From assembly GCA_030616775.1 (NCBI GenBank), contig JAUWWQ010000034.1:1-45102 (forward strand): a stretch of DNA of 45,102 nt. The letters run 5' to 3'. Origin of the DNA: Planctomycetota bacterium (GTDB lineage: Bacteria > Planctomycetota > Phycisphaerae > UBA1845). Below, one piece after another: positions 1,254-25,846 of this stretch; positions within the stretch are counted from its first letter, which is position 1, and the number at the start of each line of letters is the position of its first letter. Under the pieces are notes generated by a model. The model searched no databases. It was not told the origin of the DNA and saw nothing but the letters and a program-made list of their open reading frames with translations. The position numbers were made by a program, and so were the translations under genes.

Positions 1254-1321
1254 ACTCCGGCAGACCAAGCGGGAAGCTCGATCAGAGCGTCCCGATGGCG
1301 CAGTGTTGTTGCAGGCAACCT

Positions 1322-2728
1322 ATGCTGGACCGGTTGGACGAGACTATTGTGGCGATTTCCTCAGCCCCCGGGTTTGGGGTGCTCGGGATCGTGCGGCTTA
1401 GCGGTCCCAAGGCGATCACCATCGCGGATTGCATGGCTGCTACCGACACGGGGGAACCATTGGCCGGGCGCCCGGGCTCTACGCGCGTCTCGGGTAACGT
1501 ACAGATTGATGACGGTGCCGGTCTGCCGGCGGCGTTTTACCTGTTCCGTGCGCCGCACAGCTATACGCGTCAGGACATCGTCGAGATTCATACCGTCGGG
1601 TCCCCGGCTGCGTTAGATCTGGTCCGCCGCAAAGCCATCGAGCTGGGTGCTTTGGCGGCCGGGCCCGGTGAGTTCACCGCCCGGGCATTTCTGAGCGGTG
1701 CAATGGACCTGGCATCCGCAGAGGCGGTAGCCGGCATGATTCGGGCCCAGACCGATACTCAGCTTCGGGCCTCGCGCCGGATGATGGATGGGACGCTGGC
1801 CAAGCACATCACGGAAGTGCGAAACGAGCTGGCGGAATTGCTGGCACTTGTTGAAGCAGACATAGACTTCGCCGAGGAGCCCATCGAATTCATCACGCCC
1901 GAGGTGCTGCGCCGCCGGCTGGGCGAGATCACCGAACGTCTGCAGCGGTTGCTCAGGACGGCCACGTCAGTGGAGCGGTTCGACGTGGTGCCGCACATCC
2001 TGCTCTTCGGCCCGCCCAATGCCGGGAAGAGCTCGCTGATGAATCGGCTAAGCGGCACCAACCGGGCCATCTGCGCAGCGGCCTCCGGCACGACCCGTGA
2101 TATCCTTTCAGCGCCTGTTCGTATTGGGCGTGGGGAGGCCATCCTGCTCGATACGGCTGGTGTGAGTCGATCGGAAGATGAGATCATCGCCGCCGCGCGT
2201 GCCATGACCATGTCAACAGCCGAGCGCGTCGACCTGATTTGTATCGTCTTCGATCTAGCCAAACCTGATGACGAACACGTCTTTGACACGGTTGGCTCAC
2301 TCGATACCGGCCGGCTGATCATAGCGGCCAACAAGTGCGATCTGGTATCGGCTGATCAAGCGAGACAAATTGGCGAGCGACTACGTTCCCGCGGGCTTGG
2401 CCCGGTCTGCCTGGTTAGTGCCCTAAACGGCATGGGGATCGACGCCCTTCGCAACGTTCTTGCCGAGGCACTCGGATCGACAATGACGACCACACTGGGC
2501 GAGTCAGTGCTGATCAGCGATCGCCAGGGCGCCGCCGTTAATGAAGCGTCCGAGGCGATCAAGCGCGCCGCCTGCTTGAGTGAGGCCGCCCGGGAGACAA
2601 TCGACTGTGCCGATCTTATGGCATTCGAGCTGCGTGAGGCCCTTGACGCCCTGGGTTCAGTGACCGGCGAGGTAACCACCGAAGACCTGCTCAGCCAGGT
2701 GTTTGCAAACTTCTGCATCGGCAAGTAG
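1322..2728 (+). CDS. mnmE: tRNA modification GTPase MnmE (TrmE)
   Basis: MnmE works with MnmG to put the (carboxymethyl)aminomethyl group on C5 of the wobble uridine of certain tRNAs, using a methylene-tetrahydrofolate unit and GTP hydrolysis. The protein is 468 residues, close to the usual ~450. It has the N-terminal folate-binding domain (starting ETIVAISSAPG), a helical middle domain, and an inserted G domain with G1 GPPNAGKSS (about residue 231), DTAG (G3) and NKCD (G4). It ends FCIGK, keeping the C-terminal Cys motif. Start at 1322 (MLDRLDETIVA) fits family alignment; an upstream in-frame start at 1295 would add nine Cys-rich residues. MnmG is not in the window. The gene appears to be transcribed alone. 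Confidence 0.96.
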   Translation: MLDRLDETIVAISSAPGFGVLGIVRLSGPKAITIADCMAATDTGEPLAGRPGSTRVSGNVQIDDGAGLPAAFYLFRAPHSYTRQDIVEIHTVGSPAALDLVRRKAIELGALAAGPGEFTARAFLSGAMDLASAEAVAGMIRAQTDTQLRASRRMMDGTLAKHITEVRNELAELLALVEADIDFAEEPIEFITPEVLRRRLGEITERLQRLLRTATSVERFDVVPHILLFGPPNAGKSSLMNRLSGTNRAICAAASGTTRDILSAPVRIGRGEAILLDTAGVSRSEDEIIAAARAMTMSTAERVDLICIVFDLAKPDDEHVFDTVGSLDTGRLIIAANKCDLVSADQARQIGERLRSRGLGPVCLVSALNGMGIDALRNVLAEALGSTMTTTLGESVLISDRQGAAVNEASEAIKRAACLSEAARETIDCADLMAFELREALDALGSVTGEVTTEDLLSQVFANFCIGK

Positions 2729-2920: not shown

Positions 2921-4249
2921 TCAGGACACCTCAGCGAGCCTTCGCTCAAGGTTGGGAACCGGCGTGAAGTGCCACTCCCTGCCAACTTTCCCTGCCTCGA
3001 GAACGCCGCGTCCCGCCAAGTCGAGCAAATCTATTCGGGCTGTCTGATAGGCGACATTGTGACTGACGCGATGCGACTCGATCGTATATCGATGGTGGGG
3101 GTGTCGGAGGGCATGGCTGATTAGCGCACGCTGCCTGTGGTTAAGCACAACCATCCCCCGCAACTCGCTCTCGAGTGCCTCTAGCTGCTTTGTCTTCCGC
3201 GCGACGTACTTGTGCAATTCGTCAACGGCGCGACGAATGACATCCAGGTGGTATACGAGGAAGTAGGTCAAGTCGTTGTCGTCCGTTTCCGTATATAGAA
3301 ACGCACGACCGTACTTGGCCGGCGCCTTTCGAATGATCTCGGATATCGAGATGAACTCGCACATCCAGTATCTGTAATGCAGCATCGACCAGTAGAACAG
3401 CGCTCTGGCCGTTCGACCATTTCCGTCAATGAATGGATGGTCGTAGGCAAGCCAGAAGTGCAGGATCATTGAGCGGATGACCGGGTGGATAAACTCCCGC
3501 GTGCTCTTTCCGTTGGCGAAATCGCACATTGCCTCCATGCGTTCCTCGAGCTGTTCGCCCGGCGGAGGTTCATGAAACACCTGTCCGTACATATCATCCA
3601 CTACGACCTCTTCCCCTGGTCGTCGGAGTCGCCCCTCCGCCGATGGGTCATCGAGAGTGTCTCGGGTGACGAGCCCATGCAACTTGCGAACGAGTTCCTT
3701 GCTGAGCCGTTCTCGCTTGAGCTTCCCAATCTGCTGCATCGTGCGGAAGTTGTTGAGAATCATTCGCTCGCTGCGGTCGCGCGGAGTTCGGCCGGTACGA
3801 ATCATCTCCTTGGCAACCAGTCGCGTCGTCGCTGCCCCTTCGAGCTGGCTGGAGGTGATCGCTTCCTCGATCAGCGACCCAACGAGGTACCGGTCCTTCG
3901 TATCAGGATTTGTGATGAGATCCGGCATTGCGATCGATCCCGCTGCGCCCTGGTCGACGTAATGAAGCCCTTCGGGAATAGGATCAACCAATCCGTAGCT
4001 GAACGGGGCCCCATTCACATCCATCAATGGAATCGGCCTGCGCTGGGTCCGGCGCTGCGTCTTCAGGGCGAACCACCACTCTTCGCTTGACAGATCGCCG
4101 GGTGGTTTGAGATGGCGGAGCTTGTCCCAATGCAGGTATCTCCCTGCGGGTGTTTGCGCGGAAACTGCGTCGAAAACGGTCTCCCTCCGCTCGATCTCAA
4201 AGTTACGCCACAATTCCCTGTAACCCGGCGGCTTCTGGGGGATTCTCAT
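2921..4249 (-). CDS. Fic-domain AMPylase, class II, with C-terminal DNA-binding-like domain
   Basis: Fic enzymes transfer AMP (or another NMP) from a nucleotide onto hydroxyl groups of target proteins. The full active-site motif HPFIDGNGRTAR is present (around residue 275), with the catalytic His. An N-terminal SSQLEG (around residue 137) fits the (S/T)xxxE(G/N) inhibitory helix, which places the protein in class II, self-inhibited, so no separate antitoxin is needed and none is seen. The N-terminal region resembles Fic_N. The last ~70 residues (from about RQRALISHALRH) look like a winged helix-turn-helix. The 442-residue length is usual for this architecture. The start at 4249 has GGATGAAG upstream. 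The promoter region is AT-rich and carries operator-like repeats, suggesting autoregulation. Target unknown. Confidence 0.9.
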   Translation of the reverse strand: MRIPQKPPGYRELWRNFEIERRETVFDAVSAQTPAGRYLHWDKLRHLKPPGDLSSEEWWFALKTQRRTQRRPIPLMDVNGAPFSYGLVDPIPEGLHYVDQGAAGSIAMPDLITNPDTKDRYLVGSLIEEAITSSQLEGAATTRLVAKEMIRTGRTPRDRSERMILNNFRTMQQIGKLKRERLSKELVRKLHGLVTRDTLDDPSAEGRLRRPGEEVVVDDMYGQVFHEPPPGEQLEERMEAMCDFANGKSTREFIHPVIRSMILHFWLAYDHPFIDGNGRTARALFYWSMLHYRYWMCEFISISEIIRKAPAKYGRAFLYTETDDNDLTYFLVYHLDVIRRAVDELHKYVARKTKQLEALESELRGMVVLNHRQRALISHALRHPHHRYTIESHRVSHNVAYQTARIDLLDLAGRGVLEAGKVGREWHFTPVPNLERRLAEVS

Positions 4250-4280
4250 CGTAACTTCATCCCAGATAATGGGTTGCGAA

Positions 4281-4379
4281 ATACTAATCTTATACTAATT
4301 CATGTCAGATTAGTATTAGCGTTCAAGGGACGGCCTGTCAATATACTAATTTGACAAATCTTAGTACAAAACTAGTATA
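4281..4379. promoter_or_regulatory. Operator-like array of ATACTAAT half-sites upstream of fic
   Basis: ATACTAAT occurs at 4281-4288, 4292-4299 and 4343-4350, and its complement ATTAGTAT at 4309-4316. Related TTAGTAC and CTAGTAT occur near 4361 and 4372. The copies at 4292 and 4309 form a perfect inverted repeat with a 9-nt spacer; those at 4281 and 4292 are exactly 11 bp apart, one helical turn. The stretch is strikingly AT-rich against its surroundings and overlaps the predicted -10 region. The rest of 4250-4559 shows no gene. Confidence 0.6.
4313..4341 (-). promoter_or_regulatory. Predicted sigma70 promoter of the Fic gene
   Basis: On the minus strand a perfect TTGACA (4336-4341) is followed after 17 nt by TAATAC (4313-4318). 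This is the only good promoter-like pair upstream of the Fic gene, about 65 nt before its start. The -10 overlaps an ATACTAAT-type half-site, so a protein bound there would block transcription. Confidence 0.5.
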
Positions 4380-4559
4380 TAGTTATAGGACTATGCTCAT
4401 ACCATCGGTGGGAATCTGGTGAAATGCCAACGCAATATCTGGCGTAGCTTCTGCGATCACCTTGAGACCTATTCAGATGGCCGACCTCCATCCCCGACGG
4501 CGGCGCGCGAGGTAGGTCGCTGGTTGAGAGTCTCTCGGTCCATCCGGGCAGATCCTGGG

Positions 4560-5609
4560 CTACGCAACAGTGATGGACGTGTCGAGGTATACGTCCTGGA
4601 TGACGTTGATGAGCTTGACGCCTTCTTGCATGGGTCGTTGGAAGGCCTTTCGGCCGCAGATCACTCCCATTCCTCCGGCCCGCTTGTTGATAACCGCCGT
4701 TCTGGCGGCATCCTTGAAATCGTTGTCGCCGGAGGCGCCGCCGGAATTGATCATGCCAGCCCGGCCCATGTAGCAGCCGGCCACCTGATACCGCGTCAGG
4801 TCGATCGGGTTGTCGCTGGTCAGCGTACTGTAGACGGCCTTATGGGTCTTGCCGAAGTTGATCGCGGTAAAGCCGCGATTGGTCTCGGCCTGTTTCTGCT
4901 TGATGAGATCAGCCTCGATGGTAACACCGAGGTGATTGGCTTGATTGGTCAGATCGGCTGACACGTGGTAGTCGACCCCGTCTTTCTTGAACGCGCTGTT
5001 TCGCAGATAGCACCAGAGCACGCAGACCATGCCCAACTCATGAGCGATGTGGAAGGCCTCGCTGACTTCCTGTATCTGCCGGGCGGATTCGTCCGAGCCG
5101 TAGTAGATCGTCGCCCCGACCGCGGCGGCACCCAGGTCAGCGGCCTGCCTGACATCGGCGAACATGATTTGATCATAACTGTTCGGGTAGGTTAGCAGCT
5201 CGTTGTGGTTGAGCTTGACGATAAACGGAATCTTGTGGGCGTATTTCCTGGCCACGCTCCCAAGCACTCCGAGCGTCGAAGCCACAGCGTTGCAGCCGCC
5301 TTCGATGGCCAGCCGCACGATGTTTCCCGGGTCGAAGTACATCGGATTGGGCGCAAACGACGCCCCGGCGCTGTGTTCGATGCCTTGGTCGACCGGGAGA
5401 ATCGACAGATACCCTGTGCCTGCGAGCCGCCCGCGATTGAATATCGCCTGTAGGTTACGCAATACCGGCACCGGTCGGTCCGTGTGCGCAACCACACGAT
5501 CGACGAAGTCCGGCCCGGGCAAGTTCAGCATCGACTTGTCAATGGTCCTGCATTTGTGGGTCAGCAGTGGTTCCGCTTGAGGTCCCAACAGGTCAATGGT
5601 AGCGCTCAT
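4560..5609 (-). CDS. fbaB: Class I fructose-bisphosphate aldolase (FbaB/DhnA type)
   Basis: This enzyme cleaves fructose 1,6-bisphosphate to glyceraldehyde 3-phosphate and dihydroxyacetone phosphate in glycolysis, and runs in reverse in gluconeogenesis. The 349-residue length matches FbaB (about 350). Family segments are clear: [10 protein letters not shown] near residue 70, [20 protein letters not shown] in the middle, [20 protein letters not shown] and [13 protein letters not shown] near the C-terminus, and the ending [14 protein letters not shown]. Class I aldolases form a Schiff base with an active-site lysine and need no metal; I do not assign that lysine with certainty. The start has GGAGG about 12 nt upstream. 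It is a single gene between the Fic gene and a MITE-like repeat. Confidence 0.95.
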
Positions 5610-5703: not shown

Positions 5704-5841
5704 CGGTTCCGCGTTTCATAAATAGTGCGACGATGATCCTACGCCGAGCCGCGGGCTTCAGCCCGCGCGGACGTCCGCGTCCCGGCGCGCCGGGAAAGCC
5801 TGCGGCTCAGATAGTCGCGAGACTTGTGAAACACGGTACTG
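5704..5841. mobile_element. MITE-like repeat, copy 2
   Basis: The ends are GGTTCCGCGTTTCATAA on the left and TTGTGAAACACGGTACT on the right, an imperfect terminal inverted repeat. The interior holds the double palindrome GAGCCGCGGGCTTCAGCCCGC and a second, altered arm ending GCCTGCGGCTC. It fills most of the gap between fbaB and tig. It is about 138 bp and more diverged than copies 3 and 4. No promoter for tig is evident in the rest of 5610-5965, which is very GC-rich. Confidence 0.75.
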
Positions 5842-13266: not shown

Positions 13267-13396
13267 TAGTACCATGTTTCACAAGTTTCGCGACTATCTG
13301 AGCCGCGGGCTTTAGCCCGCGCGGTGCTCCGCGCAGGCTAAAGCCTGCGGCTCGGCGCGTGATCTATAGTCGTAGTATTTGTGAAACACGGTACTA
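13267..13396. mobile_element. MITE-like repeat, copy 3 (130 bp)
   Basis: It begins TAGTACC and ends GGTACTA, with terminal inverted repeats of about 30 bp (TAGTACCATGTTTCACAAG against CTTGTGAAACACGGTACTA). The core has two adjacent palindromes, GCCGCGGGCTTTAGCCCGC and GCAGGCTAAAGCCTGC. CTAG is found at both outer edges. Its reverse complement matches copy 4 at all but about five positions. It lies between two secreted-protein genes, 8 nt past the end of the upstream one. Confidence 0.85.
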
Positions 13397-25719: not shown

Positions 25720-25846
25720 AACCGTGTTTCACAAATACTACGACTATAGATCACGCGCCGAGCCGCAGGCTTTAGCCTGCGCGGAGCACCGCGCGGGCTA
25801 AAGCCCGCGGCTCAGGTAGTCGCGGGACTTATGAAACATGGTACTA
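25717..25846. mobile_element. MITE-like repeat, copy 4 (130 bp)
   Basis: It begins TAGAACCGTGTTTCACAAA and ends TTATGAAACATGGTACTA, and is nearly identical to the reverse complement of copy 3 over all 130 bp. The core palindromes GCAGGCTTTAGCCTGC and GCGGGCTAAAGCCCGC are intact, and CTAG borders each end. The left end supplies the ftsY stop codon. The next gene's ribosome site begins a few bases after the right end. In RNA the element would form one long hairpin separating ftsY from the next gene. Confidence 0.87.

Follow-up and report, generated by a model that had tools for sequence, protein, structure and literature searches.

Covariation between a recognition helix and promoter half-sites suggests that a class II Fic enzyme controls its own production

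Introduction

Self-repression by a Fic protein with a helix-turn-helix domain has one experimental precedent, CccR of Yersinia pseudotuberculosis. Passages of PMC9755527 report a CccR footprint, AGATAATCAT-N26-ATGATAATCT, over its own promoter and derepression in the mutant, and give the authors' view that the regulatory and toxic activities are independent. For CbFic2 of Coxiella burnetii, the relevant part of PMC10628234 describes DNA that is bound via the winged helix-turn-helix (wHTH) domain and stimulates the enzyme; the same text states that DNA binding by SoFic of Shewanella oneidensis had not been demonstrated. Our search of the open-licence literature found no autoregulating Fic-HTH protein besides CccR, and no family-wide Fic operator or residue-base rule. 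The role of the DNA-binding domain remains open in most Fic-wHTH proteins. Here we analyse a fic gene and its upstream repeats in a stretch of DNA of 45,102 bases (the window), for which an earlier note had proposed that the Fic protein binds its own promoter.

Results

The window encodes a class II Fic protein with a C-terminal wHTH domain

A Pfam search of the window protein returned the Fic domain alone (E 7.9e-18), and the PADLOC SoFic profile matched it with E 1.4e-36; only this profile match points here to a possible anti-phage role of the SoFic type. Against the SoFic equivalog NCBIfam NF046030 the protein scored 51.1 bits, below the curated cut-off of 550, and it is not among the 7 of 21 family members matched by Pfam SoFic-like_C. 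The AlphaFold model (pLDDT 89.5, pTM 0.82) ends in three helices (371-382, 390-397 and 401-413) and two wing strands (417-422 and 425-430) that together form a wHTH, with residue 401 as the first residue of the modelled recognition helix. The solved folds nearest to the model include SoFic, Dde_2494 and CbFic2, with SoFic matching at Z 27.2, rmsd 5.7, 331 aligned and 18% identity. The fold model and the Foldseek and VIA matches to 3eqx/3zcn display the SoFic-type domain order, a Fic core followed by a C-terminal wHTH. Since the VIA-align rows scarcely extend past residue 357 of the window protein, we make no claim as to the closest solved wHTH.

The class II catalytic motif HxFx[DE]GNxRxxR is intact in the window protein and in 122 of 123 family rows. 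Of the 117 family rows that cover the inhibitory motif (S/T)xxxE(G/N), 116 keep it, as does the window protein. Both protein-level claims of the earlier note were supported, the winged-helix-like C-terminus by the fold model and the self-inhibited enzyme by SSQLEG together with an intact HPFIDGNGR. We classify the window protein as a class II Fic and putative AMPylase. The sole exception to both motifs in the family, locus L022, carries QPFPDANCRAAR and SAQLDG on a long branch. Despite its altered motifs this locus retains a pair of exact CTACTAAT sites in its upstream DNA, and its protein is perhaps a regulator without enzyme activity.

A dyad-symmetric array lies over the fic promoter

The octamer ATACTAAT/ATTAGTAT occurs in four exact copies in the window, all at the array upstream of fic, against 0.19 expected (Table 1). 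At least four copies were reached in 0 of 100 window shuffles, and none of 5,000 dinucleotide shuffles of positions 4250-4400 produced any 8-mer in four copies. The four exact half-sites, the perfect inverted pair with 9-nt spacing and the direct pair 11 bp apart described by the earlier note are all present; the array is larger than it had claimed, with two degenerate sites added. Read against CTACTAAT on the fic strand, it runs F''-3-F''-9-R'-26-F'-9-R'-3-R', so that the six sites (four exact, two degenerate) form two three-site modules in dyad symmetry with spacers of 3-9-26-9-3. A scan of the whole genome for TACTAAT-N9-ATTAGTA found perfect or one-mismatch matches at the fic array alone, and the next three matches each carry two mismatches. 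With this inverted pair confined to fic, an operator elsewhere in the genome was rejected.

Table 1. Coordinates of the features discussed, in window positions
Feature	Position	Strand	Basis or remark
fic gene, 442 aa, class II Fic with C-terminal wHTH	2921..4249	-	ORF, profiles, fold model
Catalytic motif HPFIDGNGRTAR (contains HPFIDGNGR, intact), residues 271-282	3404..3439	-	sequence
Inhibitory motif SSQLEG (SxxxEG), residues 133-138, N-terminal	3836..3853	-	sequence
wHTH domain, residues 371-430	2960..3139	-	fold model
Recognition helix, residues 401-413 (Y401/Q402 at 3044-3049)	3011..3049	-	fold model and covariation
Half-site R3	4281..4288	.	exact; outer, nearest start codon
Half-site R2	4292..4299	.	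exact; 3 nt from R3
Half-site F1	4309..4316	.	exact, reversed; 9 nt from R2; overlapping -10 region
Promoter-like TTGACA-17-TAATAC	4313..4341	-	consensus scan; between two three-site modules
Half-site R1	4343..4350	.	exact; 26 nt from F1; adjoining -35 box
Degenerate half-site CTTAGTAC	4360..4367	.	9 nt from R1
Degenerate half-site ACTAGTAT	4371..4378	.	3 nt beyond CTTAGTAC site
DeoC/LacD-family aldolase gene	4560-5609	-	other fic flank

The inverted half-sites span the promoter-like region of fic itself, a CccR-like layout. In the TTGACA-N17-TAATAC promoter that the earlier note had placed under the half-sites, the TTGACA box (4341-4336, minus strand) is exact, but TAATAC (4318-4313) is weak, agreeing with TATAAT at 3 of 6 positions, and a consensus scan favours AATACT as the -10 with an 18-nt spacer. 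In one module the inner half-site adjoins the exact TTGACA; in the other it overlaps the -10 region. A second promoter-like pair, TTGACA-16-TAGTAT, lies at 4351-4378 (+) within the upstream module and is directed away from fic; divergent transcription from it is possible.

The gene at 1295-2728 (+), which we take from a reading of its protein to be mnmE-like, flanks fic opposite the aldolase gene. The surroundings also hold an element of 110-130 bp with inverted ends, CCRYGTTTCAYAA...TTRTGAAACRYGG, in four window copies (2790-2901, 5709-5836, 13272-13391 and 25722-25841). It was found in nine places in the 4.45-Mb genome, where the reversed control pattern had no match, and it resembles a small palindromic repeat that does not code for protein.

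Relatives are scattered and carry arrays of their own

Relatives were counted as genomes with a match to the window protein at E<=1e-50. Such matches occur in 27/392 genomes of its own phylum, its own genome included, and in 10/398, 9/395, 7/194, 8/198, 13/193 and 16/194 genomes of six other groups built around Pseudomonadota, Bacteroidota, cyanobacterial, actinobacterial, myxobacterial and Lentisphaeraceae seeds, where each tally includes the seed genome. By count, 18 plasmid records and 3 phage records hold relatives. The plasmid matches H1-H11 are 33-39% identical and lie on plasmids of 90-220 kb from Vibrio and from one Klebsiella; of the 18 plasmid records, 17 were called non-mobilizable. 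The Fic-wHTH family is sparse and scattered over phyla, a distribution that would fit horizontal spread.

With additional relatives taken from genome contigs and viral contigs, 135 candidate loci were collected, from which removal of 6 duplicates, 6 loci without a recognisable ORF and 12 without a usable start left 111. The best upstream dyad score was at least 8 in 82.0% of these loci (20.6% of shuffles), at least 9 in 67.6% (5.3%) and at least 12 in 34.2% (0.2%). The majority of relatives have inverted arrays upstream, in which the half-site letters vary by lineage. Dyad scoring was used in place of a histogram of all inverted 8-mers, which was uninformative on the spacing of inverted pairs because long arms smear across distances. 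Peaks for direct 8-mer repeats stand at 10 bp (32 loci, 8.0 expected), 11 bp (30 loci, 7.8 expected) and 21 bp (24 loci, 7.4 expected). Half-site letters were assigned by core counting, as an automatic caller mis-framed loci such as L162 and L163. Spacing statistics covered 50 loci of four helix classes, of which L173 yielded no site. Among convergent pairs the spacer was 9 nt in 53 of 276, 20 nt in 27 and 10 nt in 21, the 20-nt spacer corresponding to the outer half-site of a 3-9 module; same-orientation pairs had spacers of 3 nt (33 of 308) and 2 nt (23). In the 34 loci with the residue pair Y-[QE] at 401-402, as in the window protein, the upstream 170 bp contain ACTAAT at 132 times the density found elsewhere in these loci (68 copies in 5,747 bp against 12 in 133,433 bp).

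Flanks of up to about 1.5 kb were surveyed for neighbouring reading frames of at least 60 aa. Among the 12 largest groups listed, no adjacent gene of the kind expected for a toxin-antitoxin pair recurred in the 111 loci beyond close relatives, such as L152-L155 or L009/L012. A mechanical ORF of at least 35 aa lies just downstream of fic in 68 of 104 loci; the frames of at least 60 aa share no family, and a partner gene directly downstream was rejected.

Two recognition-helix residues track the half-site letters

Helix columns are missing in 2 of the 111 loci, leaving 109 for residue analyses. Core words were picked after inspecting the first loci, and the residue rule was set on these ahead of viewing the later ones. 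It pairs residues 401-402 with the half-site core as follows: Y with Q or E goes with ACTAAT, R with Q with GCTAAT, N with Q with CCTAAT, and Y with A or G with ATCAAT. ACTAAT lies upstream of 32/34 Y-[QE] loci, the relatives with the window's helix type, against 4/18 with another residue 401 (P=1.7e-7); the sites are therefore conserved near orthologues, whereas the earlier note had named lack of such conservation as part of what would refute its proposal. GCTAAT was found in 5/7 R-Q loci and 8/45 others (P=0.0076), CCTAAT in 2/2 N-Q loci and 2/50 others (P=0.0045), and ATCAAT in 6/7 [YW]-[AG] loci against 2/34 (P=4.1e-5). Histidine at 401 fits poorly, with TCTAAT in 3/6 loci.

We then ranked all alignment columns by how well they predict the core, using the 46 of 109 loci with a single commonest core in at least two copies. 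Since one phylogeny is common to all columns, this ranking is a fair control. With both sets pooled, Y401 ranks first by both measures for base n of nCTAAT (31 loci, 438 columns), with a corrected mutual information of 0.89 against 0.34 for the next column and a leave-one-out accuracy of 0.90 against a baseline of 0.71. For CT versus TC (46 loci, 435 columns) Q402 is likewise first by both, with mutual information of 0.58 against 0.35 and accuracy of 0.91 against 0.67. In the hold-out alone, Y401 is first for base n by mutual information and ties T64 in accuracy (0.82 each), and Q402 comes second for CT versus TC when ranked by mutual information (0.45, behind K248 at 0.47), with an accuracy of 0.89, the highest among the five top columns listed.

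The rule applies to the 57 of 109 loci with a named residue pair, 28 in the first set and 29 in the hold-out, which was drawn from 67 later loci in total. In the hold-out it names the single commonest core in 24/29, a result equalled by 0 of 20,000 permutations; the misses are L140, L141, L146, L147 and L173. In the first set the predicted core is not the single commonest in 6/28. Dropping hold-out loci whose Fic part is at least 70% identical to that of a first-set locus or of another hold-out locus left 17/22 correct, and filters at 60% and 50% identity left 13/17 and 4/4. With the wHTH columns left out of the tree, and with independent pairs taken on well-supported branches, Y-[QE] and ACTAAT are concordant in 5.7/6 pairs on average and opposite in 0.0 (p=0.031); other such tests (R/GCTAAT, N/CTCAA) had too few pairs and are underpowered. 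Contrasts between tree neighbours include L007 (YA, ATCAAT) next to L009 and L012 (YQ, ACTAAT), and L048 (NQ, CCTAAT) next to L124 (YQ, ACTAAT).

Other Fic subfamilies

Upstream dyads scoring at least 9 are present in 65/111 loci of other Fic subfamilies (58.6%), a set that includes some near copies, against 7.2% of shuffles and 3.6% of within-gene regions. Their palindromes differ: by eye, GCGGTGAATA accompanies helices of the form S-x-D-T-A-x-R-D and GAGCCGAATA accompanies S-K-A-T-A. Strong upstream palindromes of other sequence, apparently varying with the helix, are seen at the other Fic genes L056-L111 and L194-L256.

Discussion

A half-site word that changes in step with two residues of its putative reader is a strong indication that the enzyme regulates its own synthesis, and this covariation over many lineages supports the part of the earlier note's proposal in which Fic binds its own promoter. 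We consider it very probable, on these comparative grounds, that the array serves as operator for an autoregulatory circuit of a single gene in which the Fic wHTH represses fic from TACTAAT half-sites; Fic is most likely an autorepressor. We infer binding, the use of a dimer and repression as follows. Fic, probably dimeric, would set the recognition helices of its C-terminal wHTH onto the half-sites, with base 3 of CT[n][CT]AAT picked by residue 401 and bases 4-5 by residue 402. Each promoter flank holds one three-site module, F-3-F-9-R or its mirror image. Occupied sites would therefore cover both the -35 and the -10 box, repressing the gene.

Any operator would be expected to overlap a promoter, as this array does, and another host regulator might bind it and control fic, with the Fic wHTH serving some other purpose. 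We regard this as highly improbable: the half-site letters track Fic's own residues 401-402 best among about 435 columns in the pooled scan, the array moves with fic across phyla while neighbouring genes recur in close relatives only, and the perfect inverted pair is found in the genome solely at fic. An operator of a neighbouring gene was rejected because the neighbours are not recurrent across loci. We give almost no credence to the repeats being an AT-rich accident, the end of a mobile element or an RNA hairpin without a regulatory role, even though the genome holds other short palindromic elements such as that at 2790-2901. Their spacing is conserved with lineage-specific letters, and chance or an AT-rich artefact was rejected by the window shuffles, by the 0/5,000 local shuffles that match the array and by the strong enrichment upstream of fic across the family.

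It is less easy to set aside the view that Fic binds the array mainly as an activator, or docks there so that DNA stimulates the enzyme, in place of repressing, yet we think this unlikely. For CbFic2, the portion of PMC10628234 concerned gives a stimulation of more than 8-fold with 10-bp double-stranded DNA and of more than 22-fold with 20-bp; this coupling runs from DNA to enzyme, opposite to the link from AMPylation state to expression that the earlier note had imagined. However, the sites overlap the -10 and adjoin the -35, where they would be expected to block RNA polymerase, and CccR, with a similar layout, represses according to the text of PMC9755527.

If the code that we favour for the autorepressive operator is true, Y401R should shift preference from CTACTAAT to CTGCTAAT, and Q402A to CTATCAAT. 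It would make sequence-specific self-regulation testable, and operators could be predicted for numerous Fic genes that are as yet uncharacterised. The code also hints at a way in which an AMPylating enzyme that is potentially harmful and has no recurrent partner gene might stay low and move between lineages with its own control element. A much broader and doubtful proposal would unite Fic-wHTH enzymes in a superfamily of self-addressed single-gene circuits. Each would have a private operator co-evolving with the recognition helix, and occupancy of that operator would repress the gene and alter enzyme activity, DNA acting as a built-in antitoxin or switch. Were this so, the residue-base rule would hold as a code in general, and other Fic subfamilies would have a code parallel to it.

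Among known systems, CccR, as characterised in the pertinent sections of PMC9755527, resembles the window protein in being a class II Fic with a C-terminal DNA-binding domain and inverted half-sites near its own -35/-10 with an inner spacer of 26 nt. It differs in having two 10-bp half-sites of other letters, whereas the window has six of 8 bp, and in being a secreted T6SS effector. CbFic2 shares the combination of Fic and wHTH (PDB 8cil, fold match Z 26.8, rmsd 11.0, 336 aligned); in the corresponding passages of PMC10628234 its DNA binding was measured with random sequences, the authors are undecided on sequence specificity and the target is histone H3. SoFic (PDB 3eqx, 3zcn) is also a class II Fic with a wHTH, from which the window protein is set apart by an equivalog score of 51 against the cut-off of 550. 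Relative to these known Fic systems, what appears new is a rule, drawn from sequence comparison, by which two helix residues would predict bases of the protein's own operator.
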